58,341 nt of DNA from Actinomycetes bacterium (lineage in GTDB: Bacteria > Actinomycetota > Acidimicrobiia > Acidimicrobiales > JAJZXF01). Positions 2,873 to 54,071 of the stretch are shown here, in pieces. Location of the stretch: positions 13,638 to 71,978 of the forward strand of contig JAJZXF010000002.1 in the NCBI GenBank assembly GCA_021802485.1. The letters run 5' to 3'. The notes beneath the pieces are model-generated. The model saw nothing but the letters and a program-made list of their open reading frames with translations. It was not told the origin of the DNA and made no database searches. The position numbers and the translations under genes were made by a program. How positions within the stretch are numbered: position 1 is the stretch's first letter; each line of letters begins with the position of its first letter.

Positions 2873-3885
2873 ACAAAGGGTTCTCAGGTAGCCTGGTTCA
2901 CCCGGGCAGCAAGGTGGCAGGAGGGAGAGCTTCAGTGGTGGTTGAGGACCTCCTTGACCGCTGCGGGTTTCCTGAGAAGGGATCTGCTATTACATGTGCT
3001 GTATCTGGCGGTGCGGACTCCCTGGCTCTGATGATGCTGGCGCATGCCTGGGGCTGTGAGGTCACCGCTATTCACGTGGATCACTGCTTGCGGGATGGCT
3101 CGAGCGACGAGGCCGACGTGGTAGCGGATGCAGCGAGGGATCTCGGGGTGTGCTTCGTTTCCAGACGCGTTGAAGTCCCTGCGGGCCCGAACCTTGAAGC
3201 CCGCGCCAGAGCGGCGCGGTACTCAGTGCTCCCACCTGACGTTGCGACTGGCCATACTGCTGATGACCAAGCTGAAACTGTTCTGCTGAACTTGCTAAGG
3301 GGGTCGGGGATTGACGGCTTAGCTGCGATGCGTGCTGGGCCACGACATCCCCTTCTTGCTTTGCGCAGGTCTGAGACCGTCGCGTTGTGTGAAAGCATGG
3401 GGTTAGAGCCGGTCCAGGACCCGAGCAACGATGACCCCTCTTGGACCCGCAACAGGGTCCGCCATGAGCTGATGCCGCTATGCGCCTCGATCGCGCGACG
3501 CGATGTCGTGAAAGTAATCGCGAGGCAGTCGTCGGTTCTTGCTGAAGAGGCTGCTTTCCTGGACTCTCAGGCGAGGGCGGTGGATCCGACCGATGCTCGA
3601 GCTGTCGCGCAGGTGCCGCATGTCCTTGCCCGGCGCACAATCAGGATCTGGCTCAGGGACGCGCTGGCGGATGGGCACCCCCCATCGTTGGCAGCCGTCG
3701 AACGTGTGCTCAAGGTGGCACGCGGTGAAGCAAGCGCGGCAGAGGTTTCCTCCGGCATTCGCGTTCGCAGGTCACATTGCCGGTTGTTCCTAGAGCATTC
3801 TCTGCCAGCGGCCAGCCAGGGGGTTGCTCGCGCAACACTCAACAGTTCCGCCAGCGCCGTGGACTCCGAAGCCGTGGCTGGATAG
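2869..3885 (+). CDS. tilS: tRNA(Ile)-lysidine synthase
   Basis: TilS converts cytidine 34 of the CAU-anticodon isoleucine tRNA to lysidine with ATP, letting it read AUA. The ATP-pyrophosphatase P-loop is CAVSGGADSL, with SGGADS at residues 46-51. The family motifs GHTADDQAETVLLNLLRGSG and NDDPSWTRNRVRHELMP follow. The ATG at 2869 overlaps the upstream stop as ATGA and is chosen over the longer frame opening at 2794. The N-terminus still precedes the P-loop by about 45 residues, so a slightly later start is possible. The C-terminal domain is short, as usual in actinobacteria. hpt follows after 10 bases. Confidence 0.9.
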   Translation: MNKGFSGSLVHPGSKVAGGRASVVVEDLLDRCGFPEKGSAITCAVSGGADSLALMMLAHAWGCEVTAIHVDHCLRDGSSDEADVVADAARDLGVCFVSRRVEVPAGPNLEARARAARYSVLPPDVATGHTADDQAETVLLNLLRGSGIDGLAAMRAGPRHPLLALRRSETVALCESMGLEPVQDPSNDDPSWTRNRVRHELMPLCASIARRDVVKVIARQSSVLAEEAAFLDSQARAVDPTDARAVAQVPHVLARRTIRIWLRDALADGHPPSLAAVERVLKVARGEASAAEVSSGIRVRRSHCRLFLEHSLPAASQGVARATLNSSASAVDSEAVAG

Positions 3886-19725: not shown

Positions 19726-20955
19726 TCACCATCCCAGCGAGCTTGGCATCCGCCTGCCCCTGCGGGCGTGCCAGAGGTAGGTCCGTTCGAAGGCACGCTT
19801 TGCGAGCAGCCACTGCCTACCCTCAGAAACGATGGGGATTTTGTTTCGTGGTGGCCGGACCGGATCGACCGCCATATAGGCGCCGCGGTTTCCCATGTCG
19901 AGTATGCAGCGGGCCGACAGATCAGCGGTGGGCCCCTCGTGTCCGTCAAGCGCTGCCATGATGTCCGCGGCGGCGATCTCAGCCATCTGGTCGGTCATAT
20001 GACCAGTCTTTGGAAAATTAATGGGGACCGGCGTCTCGGCGACTGGAGCCATCGCAACCGCGACTCCGACAGCGTAAATGCCGTCAGCGCTTTGGTGCCG
20101 GTAGTGCGCGTCAACTGGGACGAAGCCCTTGGGGTTTGTGAGCCCCGGGCTCTTCGCGACAGCTTCCACGCCAGCGAGCGGTGGGATCACGATTGACAGC
20201 GCTGCTGGGATTGCCGTACCGGCATCCACCTCGACGGAGTCAGCGGTGATCTTCGTGACAGCAGCACAAGTGTGGTAGGTAATGTCACGCTCTTCGAACG
20301 CACCTTCGAGGAGCTGGCGGATCTTGCCGGCGCCGCCCATTCCCATATGGCCGAGGTGCGGCTCAGGCGTGACGAAGCTCATCGGCACAAGGTGGCGCAG
20401 CTTCCGCTGGCGGAGAAGGTGGTCGAGTTCGAACGCGAGCTCGTAAGCCGGCCCGATGCAGCTCGCTCCAGGTGCAGCTCCAATGACGACCGGACTCGGG
20501 TTTGCGATCAAGGCGCGAACCGCGCCAGCAAGCTCTTCTGCTTCTGGGGGAGACATTGGTGAATGACCTGGTCCGTCAAAGGGCCCAAGACCATCGACTG
20601 CCTCGTTCGCGCTGCGGTGGCCGGTTGCGATCACGAGGAAGTCATAGGGATGCTCACCTCGCTCCGTGATCACAGCTTTGCGTTCATGGTCGATCGCGGT
20701 CGCGGTTTCGTGGGCGAACGTTACACCCTTGGCTGCAAGTGGCGCAGCTAGGTCGAACGAGATCCGGTCAACCGTGCGGGAGCCAATTGCGACCCACGTG
20801 AGCGATGGTATGAAGGTGAACCGTCTCTCTTTCGAGATAAGGGTGATGTCAGCTCGCTCTGCAGGCACGTGTCTTCGGAGCGTGTACGCGGTCGTGAGGC
20901 CACCAAACGAGCCGCCGAGTACCACTATCTTCACGCGCTTTGACTGCCTGTTCAT
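19726..20955 (-). CDS. Sulfide:quinone oxidoreductase-like flavoprotein
   Basis: This 409-residue FAD protein belongs to the SQR / NDH-2 superfamily. The first dinucleotide motif VVLGGSFGGLTTAYTL is at residues 11-26. Three cysteines stand at 166 (GASCIGPAYE), 230 and 350 (RCILDMGNRGAYM). Cys166 and Cys350 sit where SQR enzymes have their redox-active pair, and PINFPKTGHMTDQMA matches the SQR quinone-site end. Sulfide oxidation to polysulfide with electrons to menaquinone is therefore likely. No transmembrane helix is seen; the C-terminal basic helix may dock on the membrane. The DsrE-like and ArsR-rhodanese genes upstream support a sulfur role. Confidence 0.78.
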   Translation of the reverse strand: MNRQSKRVKIVVLGGSFGGLTTAYTLRRHVPAERADITLISKERRFTFIPSLTWVAIGSRTVDRISFDLAAPLAAKGVTFAHETATAIDHERKAVITERGEHPYDFLVIATGHRSANEAVDGLGPFDGPGHSPMSPPEAEELAGAVRALIANPSPVVIGAAPGASCIGPAYELAFELDHLLRQRKLRHLVPMSFVTPEPHLGHMGMGGAGKIRQLLEGAFEERDITYHTCAAVTKITADSVEVDAGTAIPAALSIVIPPLAGVEAVAKSPGLTNPKGFVPVDAHYRHQSADGIYAVGVAVAMAPVAETPVPINFPKTGHMTDQMAEIAAADIMAALDGHEGPTADLSARCILDMGNRGAYMAVDPVRPPRNKIPIVSEGRQWLLAKRAFERTYLWHARRGRRMPSSLGW

Positions 20956-21193: not shown

Positions 21194-21544
21194 TTAGAAG
21201 CTTACGATCTTGTCTGCCCAGATTGTCCACTCCGTCACCTCATCCAGGCTCGAGCGTCTCGCACCGCTGACGAGTGCCCCATCTGCAAATGCACGGGCGT
21301 CCATGCAGGTTCCACAGCAGCCAACTTCTCCGCCGTGGCGGATCACCGCGGTCACCATGCGGTCGAGGTGATAGTAGCCGTCGGGCACCTTCTGATTTGC
21401 GAGAGCACAGCCAACCGCGTCGCCGAAGAGGAAAACCCGCAGTTCAGTGTCGTTACGCCGTGCCAGCGATCCCGCAAGGCGAAGTCCGTTAAAGGAGCGC
21501 TCGGTGCCGTAGGGTGGGTCGTTCAAGATGACCAGGATCTTCAT
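21194..21544 (-). CDS. DsrE/DsrF-like sulfur-carrier family protein
   Basis: This 116-residue protein has the DsrE-like fold pattern. An N-terminal strand MKILVILNDPPYG is followed by SFNGLRLAGSLA, then VFLFGDAVGCALANQKVPDG. A cysteine-rich loop (GGEVGCCGTCMDARA) stands near the usual active cysteine of the family. Such proteins bind or pass persulfide sulfur. Its ATG overlaps the stop of the ArsR-rhodanese gene (TGATG at 21546-21542), so translation is probably coupled. GGAG lies just upstream. It is likely to work with the rhodanese and SQR-like proteins. Confidence 0.82.
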   Translation of the reverse strand: MKILVILNDPPYGTERSFNGLRLAGSLARRNDTELRVFLFGDAVGCALANQKVPDGYYHLDRMVTAVIRHGGEVGCCGTCMDARAFADGALVSGARRSSLDEVTEWTIWADKIVSF

Positions 21545-22404
21545 CAGCTACTCCTTTGGCTTACTGCATAGTCACTTGTAGCTGGGGTGCCTGTGCGGTC
21601 CGGGGACTTTCGTGCGGAAGGTTTGAGCCCGTTGATGGGCGAAGATGCCATCTGGGCGGTCTGTCCTCGCGCCAGCTGGTTCGTCGCTTCAACCGTGGGG
21701 TGATTAGCACCTCTCGATCTCGTGACCGGCAGGCCGGCCTGACGCCACTCCGGCATGCCGTCCTCGAGGCAACGCGCGCTCCATCCCCTTTCTCGCAGAG
21801 CGGCCACGGCTTGGGGTGCGAGAAGGCAGAGCGGGCCGCGGCAGTAGGCGACGATCTCCTTGTCTGGGTCGAGATCCGTGAACACGTCTAGCTCGTGCGA
21901 GTCGGCGAAGCGTGCTTCCAGGCGTTCCAGCGGGATCGAGATCGCCTCGGGGATGTGGCCGGCATCGTACTCTTCGGTAGGTCGCACGTCGACGACTACC
22001 ACTTCGCCCGCCCGTACCCGCGCGAGTAGTTCCGCCCGAGTGACGCGTTCAGCCGCGCCGGCTCCGATCTCCCCGAGAATCTGGTTCACTTCGGCTAGGC
22101 GAGCGCGGGCCAGATCTCCAAGCGCGGCAACCAACCGGCATACCTCCTCGCCAGCCGCGCGGTAGTAAACCCGTGTTCCGTCCCTGCGGGTCTCGACAAG
22201 CCGAGCCTGACGCATTACTTGCAGGTGCGCTGAAGCTGTGCCCAGCTTGAGGCCTGTGGCGCCTGCCAAGGCGTCTACGGCCCGTTCTCCCTGGCAAAGC
22301 AGGTCAAGGAGCTCGATCCGCTTGGGGTGCATCACAACCTTGCCGATACGTGCCAGTTGCTCGTAGAGGGTTGTACGTCCTTGATGCATTATCTGCTGTT
22401 CCAC
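21544..22404 (-). CDS. ArsR-family regulator fused to a rhodanese domain
   Basis: This 286-residue two-domain protein has a winged-helix ArsR-type domain at about residues 10-100 (RIELLDLLCQGERAVDALA, then GTASAHLQVMRQARLVETRR). A single rhodanese domain follows at about 120-232, with the active-site loop YCRGPLC (Cys188 and Cys193). The last 55 residues are disordered-looking. The protein probably senses or handles sulfane sulfur and controls its own operon. The start may be GTG 22404 or ATG 22389 (MHQGRTTLYEQL); the latter resembles relatives better. The dsrE-like gene follows with overlap. Fusions of this kind are known in bacteria, but the signal is not established here. Confidence 0.85.
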   Translation of the reverse strand: MEQQIMHQGRTTLYEQLARIGKVVMHPKRIELLDLLCQGERAVDALAGATGLKLGTASAHLQVMRQARLVETRRDGTRVYYRAAGEEVCRLVAALGDLARARLAEVNQILGEIGAGAAERVTRAELLARVRAGEVVVVDVRPTEEYDAGHIPEAISIPLERLEARFADSHELDVFTDLDPDKEIVAYCRGPLCLLAPQAVAALRERGWSARCLEDGMPEWRQAGLPVTRSRGANHPTVEATNQLARGQTAQMASSPINGLKPSARKSPDRTGTPATSDYAVSQRSS

Positions 22405-22628: not shown

Positions 22629-23996
22629 TCACAGGGTTGGCAGGTATCGGTCCAGTTCGAACTGGGTGACTTGGCGCGTGTAGGCGGACCACTCGGAGCG
22701 TTTGTTGCGTATGAACCACTCGAAGACGTGCTCGCCTAAGGTTTCGGCGACAAGCTCGGAGCTCTCCATTAGTGCAACTGCCTCTTCGAGGTTTGAGGGA
22801 AGTGGGCGGATGCCTTCAGAAGCCAGTTCCTGGGGGGTCATCGTGTACAGATTGGTTGCTGCCTCAGCCGGTAGGTCGTAGCCGGACGTGACGCCGTCGA
22901 GCCCAGCGGCGAGAATGACCGCGAACGCGAGATATGGGTTGCAGGCTGGATCAGGGGCGCGGTACTCGATGCGTGTGGACTCTACCTTGCCGGGCTTTGC
23001 AACGGGTACGCGTATCAGTGCAGAGCGATTATTGTGCGCCCACGATACGTTGACAGGGGCTTCGTAGCCAGCCACTAGCCGTTTGTAAGAGTTCACCCAC
23101 TGGTTGGTCACCGCGGTAATTTCGCGGGCATGCTGGAGCAGGCCTGCGATGAAGCAGCGGGCGATGTCTGATAGCCCACGCTCGTCGTCGGGGTCGTAAA
23201 AGGCATTCCTATCGCCCTCGAAGAGCGAGAAGTGTGTGTGCATACCCGATCCCTGAACCCCCGCTAAGGGCTTCGGCATGAACGTGGCGTATGCCTTTCG
23301 CTTCTGGGCTATCTCTTTTACGACGAGGCGGACCGTCATGATCGCGTCTGCCATGCTGAGAGCGTCTGTATGGCGCAAGTCAATCTCATGCTGGCTCGGT
23401 GCATCTTCGTGCTGGGCGTACTCGACTGGTATGCCCATGTCCTCCAGCGTGAGGAGCGTTCGTTTTCTTATGTCGGTGGTGAGATCGCCGACCGTGAGTT
23501 CGAAGTACGAGCCTGCATCGAGTGGGCATGGGACGCGGGATGGGTCAGAGTCCGCGAAGTAAAAGTACTCGATCTCCGGTGCTGCATAGAAGCTGTAGCC
23601 TTTCTCGCGAGCCTTGTCGAGTGCTCGGCGAAGGACATTGCGGGGGCATCCCTCGAACGCTGAGCCGTCCAGGTTGGAGATGTCGCAGAACACCCGGGCC
23701 ACCGGGGAGCCGTCGTCGTCGCCGTCGCCGGATTGCAATGGAAGTATCTGGAATGTCTTTGGGTCAGGGCAAGCGAGCACGTCGCTTTCCTGGATGCGGC
23801 TGAAACCGTCGATTGACGAACCGTCGAAAGTTATGCCCTCGTCGAGAGCGCCCTCGAGCTCCGCTGGGGTGATGCTGAACATCTTGGGGATCCCGAGCAC
23901 ATCGGTGAACCAGAGCTGAATGAAGCGGACACCGCGCTCCTCGGCGGTCCGGAGTACGTAGTCACGCTGGTCCTGATCACGCTGGTCCGCAATCAC
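22629..23996 (-). CDS. Type I glutamine synthetase (second copy, probably not adenylylated)
   Basis: This 455-residue enzyme ligates ammonia to glutamate with ATP. The grasp-domain start IQLWFTDVLGIPKMFSI and EGITFDGSSIDGFSRIQESD are typical. The catalytic signatures KPLAGVQGSGMHTHFSLFEG and NSYKRLVAGYEAPVNVSW are intact, as is [17 protein letters not shown]. Around the usual adenylylation tyrosine it reads NLYTMTPQELASEGI rather than the NLYDLPPEE form, so control by adenylylation is less likely. GTG 23996 follows AAGGAGGA. It is divergent from the second glutamine synthetase gene at 24344. Confidence 0.9.
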   Translation of the reverse strand: MIADQRDQDQRDYVLRTAEERGVRFIQLWFTDVLGIPKMFSITPAELEGALDEGITFDGSSIDGFSRIQESDVLACPDPKTFQILPLQSGDGDDDGSPVARVFCDISNLDGSAFEGCPRNVLRRALDKAREKGYSFYAAPEIEYFYFADSDPSRVPCPLDAGSYFELTVGDLTTDIRKRTLLTLEDMGIPVEYAQHEDAPSQHEIDLRHTDALSMADAIMTVRLVVKEIAQKRKAYATFMPKPLAGVQGSGMHTHFSLFEGDRNAFYDPDDERGLSDIARCFIAGLLQHAREITAVTNQWVNSYKRLVAGYEAPVNVSWAHNNRSALIRVPVAKPGKVESTRIEYRAPDPACNPYLAFAVILAAGLDGVTSGYDLPAEAATNLYTMTPQELASEGIRPLPSNLEEAVALMESSELVAETLGEHVFEWFIRNKRSEWSAYTRQVTQFELDRYLPTL

Positions 23997-24174: not shown

Positions 24175-24196
24175 GTTCACACGGCGTTCACATAGC
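24175..24196. promoter_or_regulatory. PHO-box-like pair of 11-base direct repeats
   Basis: GTTCACACGGC and GTTCACATAGC lie back to back. Two 11-base direct repeats each opening with GTTCA are the core of the PhoP binding site described in Streptomyces. The site lies in the 347-base region between two divergent glutamine synthetase genes. The rest of this region shows no gene. Confidence 0.5.
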
Positions 24197-24292
24197 TGCA
24201 ACGATTGCGAAACTGGACGGCACTACCCTGCCATGTGGCAAGCTTACGCAACACGCGCACGCAGCCGCGTACGTTCGGGCACCTGGACGGTC

Positions 24293-24343: not shown

Positions 24344-25768
<1,425 letters not shown>

Positions 25769-34140: not shown

Positions 34141-36237
34141 CAAAGAAGCCTATGTCCGCCGTCGACATCCAGACCGCAGGAAGCCGGACCAAATGGCAGT
34201 GGAGCGAGGAGACCGCCCCGGGTGTTCGACCAAGCACTGACACGCTTGATCGCCCTGGGATTGGTCTCGTTGCTTGTAATGTTCCTGGCCACAGGCATCC
34301 CTACCCGCCCTGCTGCGGCTGGGACGGGTAGCTGGACTGTCATGTCGACGCCCAGCACCTCGGCCACGCAAAACAACTACCTCAACAGCATCTCGTGTGC
34401 GAGCCGGACTTTTTGTGTTGCGGTCGGCTACTACCAGAACGCAGCCAACAAAGCCAAGAACCTCATCCTCACCTGGAACGGGACGACCTGGTCGCTCAAT
34501 GACTCACCGTCGCTGTCACCTTCGCAAGGTCAGAACAACTACCTCAATGGCGTCTCGTGTGTGAGCAGGACTTTTTGCGTGGCCGCAGGATACTACTTCA
34601 ACAGTAGCGGCGAGGGGCAGAGCCTGCTCCTCGTCTGGAACGGGACGACCTGGTCGCTCGACGACTCACCGTCGCTGTCCAATTCCAACTCGCAAGATAG
34701 CGGCCTCTATGACGTCTCGTGTGCGAGCGCCTCGTATTGCGTCGCGACTGGCGTTTATTCCAATGCAGCTGATCTCACCCAGGGCCTGCTCCTCACCTGG
34801 AATGGGACGACCTGGTCGCTCGATGACTCACCGTCGCTGTCAGCCTCGTCAACCCAGAACAGCGGGCTCGGTAATGTCTCGTGCGTAACGAGCACCTTCT
34901 GTGTGGTCGGCGGTTCATATGTCAACCCAGCTAATGTCGAGGTGACTCAGAGCCTCTTCCTCACCTGGAATGGGACGACCTGGTCGCTCGATGACTCACC
35001 GTCGCTGTCAGCCTCGTCAATCCAGAACAGCTACGTCGGAAGCGTTGCGTGTACGAGTGTGACCTTCTGCGTGGCAACCGGATTCTATGGGAACCGGAGC
35101 GGCACCGTTGACCACCTTCTAATCCTCACCTGGAACGGGGTGACCTGGTCGCTCGATGACTCGCCGTCGCTGTCCCCTGCCTCCGCGCCGTACAGCATCC
35201 CTGGCTCTGTTTCATGTCTGAGCACGACGTTTTGTGTGGCAGATGGCTACTTCACGTACGACCTTTACACCGACAGCTTCCAGAACCTCATCCTCACCTG
35301 GAACGGGATGACGTGGTCGCTCAATGACTCACCGTCGCTGTCAACTTCGCAAGCTCAGAACAACTACCTCGGCGGCGTCTCGTGTGTTGGCAGCGCCTTC
35401 TGCGTGGCAGCGGGCTGGCATGAGAGCACGAACGGTGCTGATCAAACCCTTGTGCTGTCGTACAGTCGTCCCGTAACCGAGACCGGTTTGGGCTACTGGT
35501 TTGTCGCATCAGACGGTGGCATCTTCAGCTTCGGCAATGCGAAGTTCTTCGGATCCATGGGCGGGAAACGTCTGAACAAACCAATCGTTGGCATGGCAGC
35601 TACCCCGGACGGCGGTGGCTATTGGATGGTCGCATCAGACGGAGGCATCTTCAGCTTCGGTGATGCGCGCTTCTTTGGATCGATGGGCGCCAAGCCTCTA
35701 AACAAGCCGATCGTTGGCATGGCATCTACCCCGGACGGCGGTGGCTACTGGTTCGTCGCATCAGACGGTGGCATCTTCAGCTTCGGTGATGCGCGCTTCT
35801 TTGGATCCATGGGCGCCAAGCCCCTGAACAAGCCGATTGTTGGCATGGCCGCTACCCCGGACGGGAAGGGCTACTGGCTCGTCGCGTCAGACGGCGGCAT
35901 CTTCAGCTTTGGCGATGCCCGCTTCTTCGGATCCATGGGCGCCAAGCCTCTGAACAAACCAATTGTTGGAATGGCCGCTACCCCTGACGGCGGTGGCTAC
36001 TGGGAGGTCGCGTCAGATGGCGGCATCTTCAGCTTTGGCAATGCGAAGTTCTTCGGCTCGATGGGTGCCAAGCCTCTCAACAAGCCGATTGTTGGCATGG
36101 CATCTACCCCGGACGGCAAGGGCTACTGGGAGGTCGCGTCAGATGGCGGCATCTTCAGCTTTGGCGATGCGAAGTTCTTTGGATCGATGGGCGGAAAGCC
36201 TTTGAACAAGCCGATTGTCGGAATGGCCTCTGGCTAG
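34129..36237 (+). CDS. Secreted repeat protein: seven C-x5-C modules plus six C-terminal repeats
   Basis: From ATG 34129 this encodes 702 residues. A long basic N-region and the hydrophobic core LIALGLVSLLVMFLA give a signal peptide with likely cleavage after RPAAA. Part one is seven modules of about 55 residues. Each has a (S/A)C-x4-(F/Y)C pair, then a strand ending LTWNGTTWSLDDSPSLS; seven such units suggest a seven-bladed propeller. Part two is six repeats of 42 residues (GYWFVASDGGIFSFGDARFF then GSMGAKPLNKPIVGMA), the last truncated. Similar repeats are common in secreted actinobacterial proteins and are thought to serve wall or surface binding. No enzyme domain is seen. Confidence 0.75.
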   Translation: MLSQQRSLCPPSTSRPQEAGPNGSGARRPPRVFDQALTRLIALGLVSLLVMFLATGIPTRPAAAGTGSWTVMSTPSTSATQNNYLNSISCASRTFCVAVGYYQNAANKAKNLILTWNGTTWSLNDSPSLSPSQGQNNYLNGVSCVSRTFCVAAGYYFNSSGEGQSLLLVWNGTTWSLDDSPSLSNSNSQDSGLYDVSCASASYCVATGVYSNAADLTQGLLLTWNGTTWSLDDSPSLSASSTQNSGLGNVSCVTSTFCVVGGSYVNPANVEVTQSLFLTWNGTTWSLDDSPSLSASSIQNSYVGSVACTSVTFCVATGFYGNRSGTVDHLLILTWNGVTWSLDDSPSLSPASAPYSIPGSVSCLSTTFCVADGYFTYDLYTDSFQNLILTWNGMTWSLNDSPSLSTSQAQNNYLGGVSCVGSAFCVAAGWHESTNGADQTLVLSYSRPVTETGLGYWFVASDGGIFSFGNAKFFGSMGGKRLNKPIVGMAATPDGGGYWMVASDGGIFSFGDARFFGSMGAKPLNKPIVGMASTPDGGGYWFVASDGGIFSFGDARFFGSMGAKPLNKPIVGMAATPDGKGYWLVASDGGIFSFGDARFFGSMGAKPLNKPIVGMAATPDGGGYWEVASDGGIFSFGNAKFFGSMGAKPLNKPIVGMASTPDGKGYWEVASDGGIFSFGDAKFFGSMGGKPLNKPIVGMASG
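35491..36234 (+). repeat. Six 126-base coding repeats
   Basis: Five full 126-base units and a 114-base last unit encode the 42-residue GYWxVASDGGIFSFG repeats. Units 2 to 4 are nearly identical in the DNA, which suggests recent duplication or gene conversion. Confidence 0.92.
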
Positions 36238-36392: not shown

Positions 36393-39300
36393 ATGTTCGG
36401 GTTCCGATGGCCGACGTCTTCCTCGCTCGTTCGACGCGGGCGCGCAATTCCGCGATTCGTCTTGACGGTTGGTGCGCTAGGAGGGCTCTTAGTAGTCGCT
36501 GTGCCTGCAAGCGCGCCCGCTATGCTTGCGGGTCGGGCGAGAGCGGGTACTGCATCTCGGCTCTCTGGGACTGGGTTCGCGAGAATCGGGAGAGCGCCAT
36601 CGCTATCGGTCGCGACCGCGATGCGACTTGGTCCGCTGCCTTCCACTCAGCCTCTCCAGATTGAAGTGGCCTTGAATCCGAGGGATCCTGCTGCGCTAGC
36701 TCGCTACGCTTCAGAGGTGTCCACTCCCGGGTCACCCCTGTACCGCAAGTACATAAACAAGGGTGCATTCGCTCGGACGTTCGGGCCTAAGACAAGTGTT
36801 ATCAGGAGCGTGCGCAACCATCTCAGTGCACTTGGCCTGCGACTCGGACCAACGTCTGGGAATGGCCTACTTATCTCCATCAGGACGACTGCGAAGGTCG
36901 CAGAGGCTGCGTTTCGGCTCCACCTGGAGCGCTACAGGCTTGCCAGCTCGCGAATAGCCTTCGCGAACACGACCGCGCCGAGCGTTCCGGAAGCGATCGC
37001 ACCATATGTGATGGGTATAGTGGGGCTCAATAACCTTTCGCGTCTTAGGCCGATGATTGCCTGGCCGAAGCGTTTAGTTACAGGAGCGAGCGGTAAGCAG
37101 GGAGCTGAAGCGGGCGGTGGGTCGATGCCATCCAACTCGTTGTCGTTGCGCCCCAAGCTCGCATTTCCCGTTTCGCATTCATCGGGCCCTGCGCCGTGTC
37201 CGAGCGCCGCCAGCACCGCGAGCAATAACTCGAGCTACACGGCAAATCAGATAGCGTCTGCGTACGGCCTCACAGCCGCCTACGGCAAGGGAAGCTTGGG
37301 AAGCGGAGAGACCATAGCATTGTACGAGCTTGCCCCCTTCTCGGTAAGCGACATACAGCAGTATCAGTCCTGCTATGGGACGAGCACCACGGTGACTCCG
37401 ATACCTGTGGACGGCGGCGGGACGCCCGGCACGGGGGGGTCAGCTGAGGACACGCTCGACATAGAGGACGCTATCGGGCTTGCCCCGCAGGCGAAGATCA
37501 ACGTCTACGAGGCGCCGAACACTGCCGTGGGGTCCGTGGCGGGCTACAACCAGATAGCAATCGATGACTCTGCCCAGGTGGTTTCGTCCAGCTGGGGAAC
37601 CTGCGACGCCCACGCATCCTCATCTGCAGTAAAGGCTGAGAACACGCTGTTCGAACAGATGGCCATCCAGGGCCAGACGGTGCTGGTGGCAGCAGGCGAT
37701 AGCGGATCGGCGGCTTGCAAGACAACCCCCATGACGTCGGTCTCGTGTACAGGCGCAAGCTTTTGTGCAGCGGTGGACGCCTTCGGCGCCTTTCTGACCT
37801 GGAACGGCACATCGTGGTCTCAACCCTCCGTGATTGACCAGGGAGGCGGTGGCCTCACCTCGGTGTCATGTGTTAGCTCGTCATTTTGCATGGCGGTAGA
37901 CAATTCGGGTCGCGTGCTCTTCTACCCTGGTGGCGCCCTTTGGTCAGCGCCGGAGCCGGTCGATCTTGCGGGCGGCGGTCTCACCTCGGTTTCGTGTGCG
38001 TCGACCACGTTCTGCGGCGCTGTCGACGCTTCTGGCAACGCGCTTATTTACAGCATCCAGGCTGGATCCTCCACTGCGACCTGGTCTCAGCCTTATGCGG
38101 CGGACCCGAACGGCGGAGGCCTCACCTCGGTGTCATGTACGAGCTCGTCATTTTGCATGGCGGTGGACATGAAGGGTGACGAGCTCTACTACCTGAACGG
38201 AACATGGTCGCTGCCGGCGAGTATCGATCCAGCGGGGAACCCGTTCTCTGCGGTGTCATGCGTGAGCGAGTACTTCTGTGTCGCGGTGGACTCTGACTTC
38301 ATCGTGTACATGTTCGTGAATGGCTCCGAGTACACTGCGGTGCTGACGGTTGACAGCGGCTCACCCACCTCGGCAACCTGCTCGAGTACGACGTTCTGTG
38401 CGATCGTGGATGCTGCTGGGAACGTCTATACCTATAACGGGAGCTCGTGGGCCGGTCCGAACGCTTTGGACTCGAAGGCTGGGCTCAGCTCCGCGTCGTG
38501 TACCGGATCTGCGCCATTTTGTGCCGCGGTGGACGTCTCTGGAAATGCGATCACAGAGAACGGCACCGGGCCGATCTCCGGCCCGTCGGTTGTGGACGAC
38601 GTCCTCTCCCCAGGCTCGCCTGCAAGCGATCCGTATGTGACCGGAGTCGGCGGTACGAGCATGACTGCGATCGGCCCTCCTCCGACGGAGACCGTTTGGA
38701 ATGACGGCCCTGGAAGTGCAGGCTCGGGTGGCATATCGAGCTCATGGCCGATGCCGACATGGCAGAGCAATAGCGGGGTGACCGGCGTGATCAACAGCTA
38801 TTCGAGCGGAACGCCATGCGTGAAATCCATCGGAACCGCGAAGTACTGCCGACAAGAGCCGGACGTGTCGGCCGCTGCTGATCCGAACCATGGGTACGTG
38901 ATCTACTACAAGGGTGCATGGACCGTGATCGGCGGCACCAGCGCAGCCGCACCAACATGGGCGTCGCTGCTCGCGCTGGTAAACGAGAGCTGTGGAGTGA
39001 AGCTCGGGTTCGCGAACCCTCTGCTTTACCAGGCGGCGAAGAACGACCCGAGCGTGTTCAACGACCTAACGAGTGGCAACAACGACTCGTATGGCAACCA
39101 TGGTGGCAAGTACCCCGCAACGCGCGGCTATGACATGGCGTCTGGTCTCGGTACGCCGAACGGAGCAGCGCTGCAGAGCTATGTGTGCTCTCATGTCCCG
39201 GTGACGCCCCCGCCTACTGGAGTAGCAAGCGGCTATCGCTTCGTAGCCTCCGACGGGGGAATCTTCAGCTTCAAGGCCCCCTTCTACGGATCCATGGGTG

Positions 39301-39962
39301 GAAAGCCTCTCAATGCTCCGATCGTCGGTATGGCGGCAGACCCCGCGACTGGTGGTTACTGGTTCGTAGCCTCCGACGGGGGAATCTTCAGCTTCAAGGC
39401 CCCCTTCTACGGATCCATGGGTGGCAAGCACCTCAATGCTCCGATCGTCGGTATGGCGGCAGACCCCGCGACTGGTGGCTACTGGTTCGTAGCCTCGGAT
39501 GGGGGAATCTTCAGCTTCAAGGCCCCCTTCTACGGATCTATGGGTGGCAAGCATCTCAATGCTCCGATCGTCGGCATGGCATCTACCCCAGATGGCAAAG
39601 GCTACTGGTTTGTGGCCTCTGACGGGGGAATCTTCAGTTTCGGCGACGCTACATTCTACGGATCCATGGGCGGCAAGCACCTCAATGCTCCGATCGTCGG
39701 CATGGCGGCAGACCCCGCGACTGGTGGCTACTGGTTCGTAGCCTCCGACGGGGGAATCTTCAGTTTCAAGGCCCCCTTCTACGGATCCATGGGTGGCAAG
39801 CCTCTCAATGCTCCGATCGTCGGCATGGCGGCAGCCCCCGCGACTGGTGGCTACTGGTTCGTAGCCTCGGATGGGGGAATCTTCAGCTTCAAGGCCCCCT
39901 TCTACGGATCCATGGGTGGAAAGCCTCTCAATGCTCCGATCGTCGGCATGGCGGTAAGCTGA
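36393..39962 (+). CDS. S53 (sedolisin/kumamolisin) peptidase with inserted seven-module domain and C-terminal repeats
   Basis: This very large protein has about 1189 residues from ATG 36393 (GGTGG seven bases upstream). A signal sequence (FVLTVGALGGLLVVAVPASA) and a pro-domain come first. The catalytic Glu and Asp are in AEDTLDIEDA (codons 37446 and 37458), the oxyanion Asp in VAAGDSG (codon 37698) and the nucleophile Ser in GGTSAAAP (codon 38940). Between GDSG and the segment DPYVTGVGGT, about 290 residues (37731-38605) are inserted. They form seven modules with an SC-x4-FC pair followed by a short strand. After the protease come six 41-residue repeats (GYWFVASDGGIFSFKAPFYG). S53 enzymes are acid-active serine-carboxyl peptidases. 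The insertion is unusual and resembles the neighbour at 34129. Confidence 0.85.
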   Translation: MFGFRWPTSSSLVRRGRAIPRFVLTVGALGGLLVVAVPASAPAMLAGRARAGTASRLSGTGFARIGRAPSLSVATAMRLGPLPSTQPLQIEVALNPRDPAALARYASEVSTPGSPLYRKYINKGAFARTFGPKTSVIRSVRNHLSALGLRLGPTSGNGLLISIRTTAKVAEAAFRLHLERYRLASSRIAFANTTAPSVPEAIAPYVMGIVGLNNLSRLRPMIAWPKRLVTGASGKQGAEAGGGSMPSNSLSLRPKLAFPVSHSSGPAPCPSAASTASNNSSYTANQIASAYGLTAAYGKGSLGSGETIALYELAPFSVSDIQQYQSCYGTSTTVTPIPVDGGGTPGTGGSAEDTLDIEDAIGLAPQAKINVYEAPNTAVGSVAGYNQIAIDDSAQVVSSSWGTCDAHASSSAVKAENTLFEQMAIQGQTVLVAAGDSGSAACKTTPMTSVSCTGASFCAAVDAFGAFLTWNGTSWSQPSVIDQGGGGLTSVSCVSSSFCMAVDNSGRVLFYPGGALWSAPEPVDLAGGGLTSVSCASTTFCGAVDASGNALIYSIQAGSSTATWSQPYAADPNGGGLTSVSCTSSSFCMAVDMKGDELYYLNGTWSLPASIDPAGNPFSAVSCVSEYFCVAVDSDFIVYMFVNGSEYTAVLTVDSGSPTSATCSSTTFCAIVDAAGNVYTYNGSSWAGPNALDSKAGLSSASCTGSAPFCAAVDVSGNAITENGTGPISGPSVVDDVLSPGSPASDPYVTGVGGTSMTAIGPPPTETVWNDGPGSAGSGGISSSWPMPTWQSNSGVTGVINSYSSGTPCVKSIGTAKYCRQEPDVSAAADPNHGYVIYYKGAWTVIGGTSAAAPTWASLLALVNESCGVKLGFANPLLYQAAKNDPSVFNDLTSGNNDSYGNHGGKYPATRGYDMASGLGTPNGAALQSYVCSHVPVTPPPTGVASGYRFVASDGGIFSFKAPFYGSMGGKPLNAPIVGMAADPATGGYWFVASDGGIFSFKAPFYGSMGGKHLNAPIVGMAADPATGGYWFVASDGGIFSFKAPFYGSMGGKHLNAPIVGMASTPDGKGYWFVASDGGIFSFGDATFYGSMGGKHLNAPIVGMAADPATGGYWFVASDGGIFSFKAPFYGSMGGKPLNAPIVGMAAAPATGGYWFVASDGGIFSFKAPFYGSMGGKPLNAPIVGMAVS
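39231..39959 (+). repeat. Six 123-126-base coding repeats
   Basis: Six units encode the 41-residue GYWFVASDGGIFSFKAPFYG repeats. The fourth has one extra codon (FGDATFY in place of FKAPFY) and resembles the repeats of the preceding gene, as if exchanged between the two genes. Confidence 0.92.
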
Positions 39963-41556: not shown

Positions 41557-42285
41557 GTGAGCAGCGCGCTCTCACCACCACGGATCCTGCTCGTCGAGGA
41601 CGAGCCGGTACTGCGCGATACGTTGGACGGCGCACTCCGGTCTGTGGGCTATGAGGTGAGAAGCTTTGCCGACGCGAACGACCTTGGGGAAATTCTTGCC
41701 TTTGTAGCGGATCTCGCGTTACTCGATGTGGCGCTGCCGGGCCGGGATGGCTTCGCACTTGCTCGATTGCTGTGCGAGCGAGGTGACGTTGCCTTGATCT
41801 TTCTAACAGCGCGCGACGCTCTAGATGACCGGCTGCGGGGTTTCGGACATGGTGCAGATGACTACATTACGAAGCCTGTGGCGATTGAGGAGCTACTGGC
41901 GCGGGTGCGGGCAGTATTGCGCCGGAACAACAGGCTTGTTTCGGAAGCGGTGAGCGTAGGGGATCTTGTCCTCGACGAGGGATCCGGCGAAGTGATGCGG
42001 TGTGGTAAGAGACTTGACCTGACTGCGACGGAGTACAGATTGCTCGTCTTCCTCGTGCACCATCGAGGCCGGACTCTGTCGAAGCTCCAGCTTCTTACTC
42101 AGGTCTGGGGATACGATGCCTACGATCCGAACGTGGTGGAGGTTCATGTGAGCGCGCTTCGCAGGAAGCTGGAAGCTCACGGGCCCCGCATCATCCACAC
42201 CATCCGAGGCCTCGGATACCGCCTCGCCCAACCATTGGAACGCCCCGATGGCGCTGGCGAGAAGATCCTGCGGTCGAGTCCGTGA
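41557..42285 (+). CDS. OmpR/PhoB-family response regulator
   Basis: This 242-residue protein is the DNA-binding half of a two-component system. The receiver domain has the acidic pair in LLVEDEP (residues 11-17), the phospho-acceptor Asp57 in ALLDVALPG, and the conserved lysine in DDYITKPVA. The C-terminal winged helix is recognised by LTATEYRLLVFLVHH, TLSKLQLLTQVWGYD and VEVHVSALRRKLE, ending in IHTIRGLGYRL. GTG 41557 is the start. The kinase gene overlaps by four bases (GTGA at 42282). Confidence 0.92.
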   Translation: MSSALSPPRILLVEDEPVLRDTLDGALRSVGYEVRSFADANDLGEILAFVADLALLDVALPGRDGFALARLLCERGDVALIFLTARDALDDRLRGFGHGADDYITKPVAIEELLARVRAVLRRNNRLVSEAVSVGDLVLDEGSGEVMRCGKRLDLTATEYRLLVFLVHHRGRTLSKLQLLTQVWGYDAYDPNVVEVHVSALRRKLEAHGPRIIHTIRGLGYRLAQPLERPDGAGEKILRSSP

Positions 42286-51975: not shown

Positions 51976-53421
51976 ATGACGCTGTGGGAGGGACGCCTTG
52001 GCAGCGATCAGGCGCGAGCACTGATGGAGCTGAGTGAGAGCCTCTCGTTCGACCGCCGACTCGCCCCCGACGACTTGAGGGCATCACGAGCCCATGTACG
52101 CGGACTCGAGCGGGGTGGAATCATCACCAGCGACGAGACAGCGGAGATCATCCAGGCGCTGGATCAGGTGGAGAGGGAGTTGGGCGAGGGGAGCTTTGCC
52201 TTTGCCGAGGGCGATGAGGACATCCACACCGCTGTAGAGCGTAGGGTCAGCGAGATCGCACCCGTAACGGGGGCCAAGTTGCACACCGGGCGCAGCCGTA
52301 ACGATCAGGTCGCTACAGACCTGAGGCTGTTCACGAGAAGGGAGCTTTCCTCAGTGGCTGGCCTCGTGATAGATCTTTCGGAAGCGCTACTTGTACAGGC
52401 GCAGAAGGCAGGCGGCGCCTACCTTCCTGGGTACACTCACCTCCAGAGAGCGCAGTGCGTCCTCCTCTCCCACCATCTGCTGGCCCACGGATGGGCGCTT
52501 TCACGGGACGTGGATCGCATTATCCATACGGTTGTCCGTCTGAATGTCTCCCCGCTCGGGGCTGGCGCCCTCGCGGGTTCCTCGCTTCCCCTTGATCCCG
52601 AAGGGGTGGCTTGTGAGCTTGGTTTCGAGTCGTGCTTCGAGAACTCGATGGATGCAGTCGGCGATCGCGACTTTGTCGCGGAGGCGCTCTTTGACCTCGC
52701 GTTGCTTGGCGTTCATCTGTCCAGGTTTGCTGAGGAGATTGTGATCTGGTCCACCCAGGAGGTTGGTTTCATCTCCATTGCCGACGCCTACGCAACCGGC
52801 AGCTCGATGCTTCCCCAGAAGAAGAACCCCGACATAGCGGAGCTGGTCCGCGGGAAGGCGGGCCGTCTCATTGGCGACCTTACCGGGTTTCTCGCCACGC
52901 TGAAGGGACTGCCACTTGCGTACAACCGTGACCTTCAAGAGGATAAGGACCCCCTTTTCGACTCACTTGACAACATGCGCCGCGAGCTCGTCGCTCTGAA
53001 GGGTCTGATCGAGACAGCGACCTTCCAGTTGGACCGCATGCGCGATGCTGCCCACGACGAGGGCTCGGCAGCTACGGACCTTGCAGAGCTTCTTGTGTCT
53101 AACGGCGTTCCCTTTCGCGAGGCGCACCGGGTCGTAGGCTCGCTGGTCAGGCAGGCAGCAGCGCAAGGGCGCTCTTTGTTTCCTGAGGTCTTCGCCGAGC
53201 TCGTTAGCGCCCATCCACTTCTTGGCCCAGAGGCCCTGCAGCTTCTCGATCCAGGTGTCGGGGTTACAAGGCGCACCTCACCGGGCGCCGCGGGTCCTGT
53301 TGCGGTGGCAAGGCAGATGGAGAGGTTCCGCGAGCGTCTCGACGTCGACCGCAACCGACTCGAGACATTGGCCGCGCTTGACGTCGAGGTTGGCGCCTGT
53401 GGCGGGTCCGGACGCGGGTGA
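51976..53421 (+). CDS. argH: Argininosuccinate lyase
   Basis: ArgH splits argininosuccinate into arginine and fumarate. The fumarase/aspartase superfamily signature GSSMLPQKKNPD starts near residue 275. The segments KLHTGRSRNDQVATDLRLF, GYTHLQRAQCVLLSHHLLA and the LPLAYNRDLQEDKDPLFDSL part are intact. The product is 481 residues, with a slightly extended end. Its stop overlaps the GTG of the DNA glycosylase gene at 53418, so this repair gene is a translational passenger of the arginine operon. Confidence 0.95.
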   Translation: MTLWEGRLGSDQARALMELSESLSFDRRLAPDDLRASRAHVRGLERGGIITSDETAEIIQALDQVERELGEGSFAFAEGDEDIHTAVERRVSEIAPVTGAKLHTGRSRNDQVATDLRLFTRRELSSVAGLVIDLSEALLVQAQKAGGAYLPGYTHLQRAQCVLLSHHLLAHGWALSRDVDRIIHTVVRLNVSPLGAGALAGSSLPLDPEGVACELGFESCFENSMDAVGDRDFVAEALFDLALLGVHLSRFAEEIVIWSTQEVGFISIADAYATGSSMLPQKKNPDIAELVRGKAGRLIGDLTGFLATLKGLPLAYNRDLQEDKDPLFDSLDNMRRELVALKGLIETATFQLDRMRDAAHDEGSAATDLAELLVSNGVPFREAHRVVGSLVRQAAAQGRSLFPEVFAELVSAHPLLGPEALQLLDPGVGVTRRTSPGAAGPVAVARQMERFRERLDVDRNRLETLAALDVEVGACGGSGRG

Positions 53422-54071
53422 TCAACGCAAGTCCGAAGAGGCAAGGTGGCAGTGAACTCACAGTTCTGCCGCGGGCGTTTTACGATCGGGACCCGCTTGT
53501 CGTGGCGCCTGAACTCTTGGGAAAGCTACTTGTTCGAGGTCGAAGGTCGGCGCGAATCGTAGAGGTGGAGGCTTACCGGGGGAGCGAGGACCCCGCTTCG
53601 CATGCGTACAGGGGCATGACACGTAGGAACGCGACGATGTTCGGCCCCCCAGGGCACCTCTATGTCTACTTCACCTACGGGATGCACTGGTGTGCGAATG
53701 CGGTGTGCTGGCCGGCGCAACGTGCTGGTGCTGTCCTGCTCAGGGCGCTCGCCCCCCAACAGGGCCTCGATGAGATGTGGGAGTCCCGCCCGCGTGCTCG
53801 CATCGAGAGGGACCTTTGCAGCGGCCCTGCGAAGCTCTGCCAGGCGTTCGGACTGGATGGTTCCTTTGACGGTGCTGATCTGGTCACAGGTGAGCGTGGG
53901 GTCGTGATTGCTGACAATGCTGAGGTTGTCCTCGAGGCACCCAGCCAGGGAGAGAGGATCGGCATTACTCCCGCGACAGGCGCAGCGTGGCGGTGGTGGG
54001 TTTCCGGCGATCCCAACGTGTCGAGGCCTGGCGGCAACGCTGTGCGGGGTTTGCGGCGGGATGAGGTCTGA
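53418..54071 (+). CDS. mpg: 3-methyladenine DNA glycosylase (AAG/Mpg family)
   Basis: This 217-residue enzyme removes alkylated purines from DNA. It has the AAG-family core. The active-site part is RIVEVEAYRGSEDPASHAY, followed by RNATMFGPPGHLYVYFTYGM. The closing part is RDLCSGPAKLCQAFGL with RIGITPATGAAWRWWV. The glutamate in VEVEAY is the catalytic base. It starts with GTG 53418, overlapping argH by four bases. An mpg gene directly after argH also occurs in other actinobacteria. Confidence 0.92.
   Translation: MINASPKRQGGSELTVLPRAFYDRDPLVVAPELLGKLLVRGRRSARIVEVEAYRGSEDPASHAYRGMTRRNATMFGPPGHLYVYFTYGMHWCANAVCWPAQRAGAVLLRALAPQQGLDEMWESRPRARIERDLCSGPAKLCQAFGLDGSFDGADLVTGERGVVIADNAEVVLEAPSQGERIGITPATGAAWRWWVSGDPNVSRPGGNAVRGLRRDEV

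Follow-up and report, generated by a model that had tools for sequence, protein, structure and literature searches.

The two repeats at 24175-24196 of the window (the whole 58,341-nt stretch of Acidimicrobiales DNA analysed here) make up the first two of four units in an array with an 11-nt phase, which occupies 24175-24218. This array is most probably a GlnR-type nitrogen operator that acts as an activator site for the rightward glnA gene, and we put the probability of this reading at roughly 0.84. The preliminary description had reported two adjacent 11-base direct repeats, likened to PhoP binding sites of Streptomyces, between two divergent glutamine synthetase genes. The two repeats were confirmed letter for letter, and the array of 11-nt direct repeats, a type of site used by OmpR-type regulators, proved to be real, regulatory, and conserved in relatives. 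On the + strand, unit 1 (GTTCACACGGC, 24175..24185) carries the pentamer TTCAC at 24176-24180, and unit 2 (GTTCACATAGC, 24186..24196) carries the same pentamer at 24187-24191. They are followed by two units that had been missed, namely unit 3 (TGCAACGATTG, 24197..24207) with GCAAC at 24198-24202 and unit 4 (CGAAACTGGAC, 24208..24218) with GAAAC at 24209-24213. The units were defined from the sequence and from an alignment with 29 relatives. Thus, four 5-nt sites at 6-nt spacing, equivalent to two 22-bp boxes, span 24176-24213, and the same phase is kept in 30 aligned sites. All four window pentamers have A at the fourth position, and in the first pentamer this A is invariant in the alignment with the 29 relatives.

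The position of the array between two glutamine synthetase genes was also borne out. The leftward gene (22629..23996, - strand) encodes 455 aa and the rightward gene (24344..25768, + strand) encodes 474 aa, and both products exceed the TIGR00653 cut-off of 429.15 bits, with 471 and 669.9 bits, respectively. We take the former to be of the GSI-alpha type and the latter, glnA, to be of the GSI-beta type; glnA would be the target of the array. The named relatives of the GSI-beta protein belong to Acidimicrobiaceae and Acidimicrobiales, the best of them at 86%. In the window, the pattern GTTCAN6GTTCA with at most one mismatch has 4 matches against 2.54 expected, a number that 24 of 100 shuffles reach, and the site at 24175-24196 is the sole exact match. 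Genome-wide, there are three exact occurrences compared with one for the reversed control. We consider the repeats to be above chance because they are conserved in the congener and continue into a four-unit array conserved across the order. An RNA element at the site was rejected, as the Rfam scan of the window found no family at gathering score.

Conservation of the site, which had been named as a check on its function, was found across Acidimicrobiales. A DNA search with the whole intergenic region matched 2 of 59 genomes, the genome itself and the only congener available for comparison (G001). In the congener, the alignable part of the region corresponds only to window 24175-24248 (76%) and begins exactly at the first repeat; the same four units are present, with TAACGT 49 nt from the start of the array (offset 49). 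For wider sampling, a position weight matrix was built from 18 sites, and up to 350 nt upstream of the gene was scanned in the 29 of 30 GSI-beta orthologue loci of the order that have upstream sequence, the training sites being scored leave-one-out. The null distribution came from 545 Markov-shuffled sequences, whose 99% level gave the threshold of 5.0 and whose largest score was 7.8. The array was found above this level in 21 of the 29 loci, three of which (L010, L012, and L032) lie outside the training set, and the locus studied here scored 40.2. It was not found within 350 nt upstream in the other eight loci, two of which (G031 and G065) have it further upstream. In 20 named loci (L042-L061), the array was present in 17, where L043 has the same site as training locus L007 and probably represents the same contig. 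In Micromonospora, Allorhizocola, and Knoellia, the best-scoring stretch reached 9.6, 3.6, and 4.8, respectively, so that only Micromonospora passes the threshold; this stretch lies 95-121 nt before the gene, keeps the same phase, and opens with GTAAC-n6-GAAAC like the textbook GlnR box. Separately, the glnA promoter of one family (f10; L006, L008, and L010) has both GTTCAC units and, at an unchanged offset (read by eye), a -10, while the GCAAC and GAAAC units are missing.

The genes behind the array are predominantly nitrogen genes. A sequence-only covariance model, R1, was built from 30 glnA-type sites, and copies before GSII, amtB, and nirB were absent from its training set. On the genome under study (2.86 Mb, 152 contigs), R1 gave two matches at E<=10, the 24175 site (E 4.3e-7) and a copy at C130:1209-1246 (E 4.6e-4) in the amtB-glnK promoter. 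Behind this second copy, which has its TAACCT at offset 49, come the genes for an ammonium transporter (PF00909) and then for a P-II protein (PF00543). In 116 genomes of the order, R1 gave 100 matches in 78 genomes at E<=0.05, compared with about 6 expected by chance (the E-values being rough), and 38 genomes had no match at this level. Among the 100 matches, 33 lie before GSI-beta (up to 600 nt upstream), 40 before GSII, 8 before amtB (including the one described above), 2 before nirB, and 2 before ABC-transport genes, with 15 unclassified; 83 of them thus precede glnA, glnII, amtB, or nirB. No phosphate gene was recognised before or beside the array copies read in these genomes.

Of the unclassified matches, one (L170) precedes a small winged-helix gene in the vicinity of amtB-glnK, two adjoin a divergent GSI-alpha gene, and one (G075) is situated 1229 nt upstream of GSI-beta; the remainder look like chance matches or matches of obscure meaning. 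The ORFs around 12 of the 15 were read by eye and ten neighbours were scanned with Pfam, and no phosphate gene was recognised among them. Separately, in family f7 (L183 2643-3035 and L170 7172-7684), a small winged-helix protein is encoded just behind a GlnR-type array and adjoins amtB. It is a stand-alone Trans_reg_C protein without a receiver domain, the L170 member being below the Pfam cut-off, and might regulate nitrogen genes locally. In family f29 (L165, L177, and L181), a weaker array, GTTCAT/GTTCAC with GGCAAT behind it, recurs in three genomes of one family, and no nitrogen gene was recognised near these arrays. In L167 (2059-4706), a full array at 3223-3261 lies between genes for an NMT1-like substrate-binding protein and a divergent amidohydrolase, possibly a nitrogen-scavenging locus.

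The array has a fixed direction and a fixed distance to a promoter aimed at the rightward gene. In the window, a -10-like hexamer, TACCCT (24224..24229, + strand), likewise starts at offset 49, and this assignment is backed by the offsets at which nAnnnT occurs in other array copies. These were counted in 45 non-training copies (46 listed copies minus L172, which ended at a contig edge), and the hexamer lies outside model R1. The motif nAnnnT occurs at offset 49 in 30 of the 45 copies and at offset 50 in 10, while any other offset between 40 and 61 has it in 0-4 copies. In the same copies, the fourth bases of the four pentamers (offsets 4, 15, 26, and 37) are A in 45, 42, 41, and 43 cases, respectively. 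Activators of the PhoB/OmpR type can replace the -35 element, and the geometry of the array would suit an activator in that place, with transcription of glnA predicted to start near 24236. The preliminary description had suggested that the site would allow phosphate status to affect both glutamine synthetases. An effect on both is not needed, and the array is better assigned to the rightward gene because it accompanies that gene also in loci with no GSI-alpha gene found opposite (e.g., L159, L172, L175, and L186), including several where it precedes GSII.

The regulator that would bind such an operator is widely encoded in the order. GlnR of Knoellia and Dactylosporangium served as references, and the best solved-chain matches of the Knoellia protein were 8hih, 8hig, and 4o1h, of which 4o1h carries the name GlnR in its record and the other two are presumably GlnR as well. 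The search matched 110 of 116 genomes at E<=1e-25, some of the matches being paralogues, and the 98 best matches (E<=4.2e-32) were taken as the GlnR-like set. GSI-alpha positions were at hand for 80 of these 98 genomes, and in 78 of the 80, among the GSI-alpha matches listed, the GlnR-like gene lies directly downstream of GSI-alpha on the same strand. In the tree, 18 sampled orthologues and a fragment from the congener form a 100/100 clade with the Knoellia and Dactylosporangium GlnR, and PhoP, MtrA, and the nine OmpR-type regulators of the genome under study all fall outside it. As a separate observation, in our window, the place where most relatives in the order carry glnR is occupied by a gene for an ArsR-type regulator with a rhodanese domain (21544-22404), near a sulfide-quinone-reductase-like gene (19726-20955).

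In the draft assembly under study, the GlnR search gave no match at E<=1e-25, and none of the nine OmpR-type regulators falls within the GlnR clade. This includes the regulator at 41557, which had been described as not obviously PhoP; the tree bears this out and places it with neither GlnR, PhoP, nor MtrA. In the congener, whose glnA is 95% identical, the DNA-binding half of GlnR was found at a contig edge (L241 6925-7263; G001:C142). The simplest reading is that the missing glnR is an assembly gap, which we consider likely. The congener glnR lies away from the GSI-alpha locus, beside ErpA-like and Mrp-like genes (names given by eye). When glnR was sought in the present genome through these neighbours, the Mrp-like ATPase and the ErpA-like protein gave only weak matches, of 41% and partial 39%, in keeping with such a gap. 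Matches to a repeat family dominated a DNA search with the congener contig. This family is spread across the genome, with 57 places on about 30 contigs matching one congener stretch, and is also found in the window at approximately 35491-36101 and 39231-39954 (G000:C53:49128-49738 and 52868-53591), with at least two places in large ORFs.

We propose that GlnR, an orphan OmpR-type regulator, would sit as two head-to-tail dimers on the pentamers TTCAC, TTCAC, GCAAC, and GAAAC, which are 11 bp apart and would face one side of the helix. The dimers would cover approximately -60 to -24 relative to the start near 24236 and occupy the place of the -35 element. Under nitrogen limitation, GlnR would then recruit RNA polymerase to TACCCT. 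The same switch would operate in this genome at amtB-glnK and, in relatives, upstream of glnII and nirB.

The reading of the site as PHO-box-like stands in part. Its GTTCAC units do resemble the PHO box, the first two matching 6 of the 7 conserved letters of GTTCACC as given in the available part of PMC6988585. PHO identity is not supported, since the full array has four units and its copies precede mainly nitrogen genes. Were the site a true PHO box, units 1-2 would be bound by the PhoP/RegX3 orthologue alone, which would convey phosphate status to both glutamine synthetases. Such an orthologue is indeed encoded (L035); it forms a 100/99 clade with L199 and L203, and its best solved match is RegX3 (2oqr, 259 bits). 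The retention of units 1-2 alone in family f10 would also suit this explanation. However, both units have A instead of C at the seventh letter, conservation extends to units 3-4 and to the 11-nt phase shared by the whole array, and the copies in relatives precede nitrogen genes. The enrichment near pho genes that had been suggested as a check was not seen as far as tested. The three exact GTTCAN6GTTCA sites of the genome are the 24175 site, one around the start of an ORF of unrelated kind (L256), and one inside an MFS-like coding sequence (L258), and no phosphate gene was found near any of them; the PstS profile PF12849 had no match in the genome, while 13 of 14 controls were positive for it. 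The original PHO reading is therefore unlikely, and we regard a true PHO box with PhoP/RegX3 as the sole binder as very improbable. Phosphate control through PhoP competing at the site is possible, as a tentative addition that is compatible with the GlnR reading. GlnR would be the main activator, and PhoP/RegX3 (or MtrA) would compete for units 1-2, so that phosphate modulates glnA in the manner of glnA, glnII, and amtB of S. coelicolor. The PHO-like units 1-2 next to a GlnR-like unit 4 and the presence of PhoP/RegX3 are consistent with such sharing, and the glnA promoter of Streptomyces has documented overlapping sites for PhoP, GlnR, and MtrA (PMC6988585 and PMC10704036, in the parts available). 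Nevertheless, a DNA site alone cannot discriminate between binders. A bolder version, which we find rather doubtful, is that the GlnR operator has drifted in Acidimicrobiia into an upstream PHO-like half (GTTCACA twice) and a downstream GlnR-like half (GCAAC and GAAAC). The result would be a single 44-bp site integrating phosphate and nitrogen signals, with PhoP/RegX3 and GlnR on opposite halves, before glnA, glnII, or amtB throughout the order.

Two further explanations concern the array as a whole. As glnR was not found in the assembly, another OmpR-type regulator, for example the MtrA/CseB-like L033, might have taken over the array in this genus, and MtrA is described as binding GlnR boxes in Streptomyces in the accessible text of PMC6988585. 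However, the congener with its 95% identical glnA has the GlnR DNA-binding domain, and L033 groups in the tree with L209 and not with MtrA, which makes a takeover quite improbable. That the repeats arose by chance and have no function would be allowed by the two-unit pattern, which on its own is not significant in the window, but conservation across families, the fixed -10 spacing, and the independent second match at amtB-glnK leave this a negligible prospect.

We found no work on GlnR in Acidimicrobiia in the literature searched, where the string GlnR appeared together with this class only in a paper on GlnRS, nor anything joining this class with nitrogen regulation, glutamine synthetase, and the ammonium transporter, and the GlnR review PMC10704036 makes no mention of Acidimicrobiia. 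The present analysis offers an initial outline, drawn from sequence, of how nitrogen is controlled in Acidimicrobiia. Directly testable elements of it are the operator with its -10 geometry, the target genes, and the conserved locus of glnR, GSI-alpha, operator, and glnA or glnII. It also illustrates that an observer who sees only two of the four units can easily mistake a GlnR-type operator for a PHO box.

The closest known system is the GlnR box of Streptomyces and other Actinomycetes, gTnAc-n6-GaAAc in two 22-bp boxes (PMC5826061 and PMC10704036, available in part), for which the fourth adenine of the pentamer is reported to be irreplaceable (PMC10704036, same part). Operators of this kind are known in Actinomycetes before glnA, glnII, amtB, and nirB, according to the same portions of both papers. 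The array shares with it the four pentamers at n6 spacing, the A at the fourth position, an identical fourth pentamer (GAAAC), and copies upstream of the same four genes in an order that encodes GlnR orthologues. However, TTCAC takes the place of GTnAC/GAAAC in pentamers 1 and 2, and pentamer 3 reads GCAAC. Only pentamer 4 fits the strict gTnAc/GaAAc letters; thus, we file the site as a GlnR-type variant and not as a strict Streptomyces box. In contrast to the Streptomyces system, glnR in this order sits beside its target, behind GSI-alpha, and it was not found in the assembly under study. With the Streptomyces PHO box, which consists of 11-nt direct repeat units of GTTCACC (PMC6988585, in the section available), the array has in common the 11-nt direct repeats and the GTTCAC match of units 1-2, but it differs in its seventh letter A, in the misfit of units 3-4, and in having nitrogen genes as targets. 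At the glnA promoter of S. coelicolor, competition between PhoP and GlnR is documented, as far as the available parts of PMC6988585 and PMC10704036 go. Like that promoter with its overlapping PhoP, GlnR, and MtrA sites, the array appears, by its letters alone, to be a nitrogen operator that partly resembles a PHO box.
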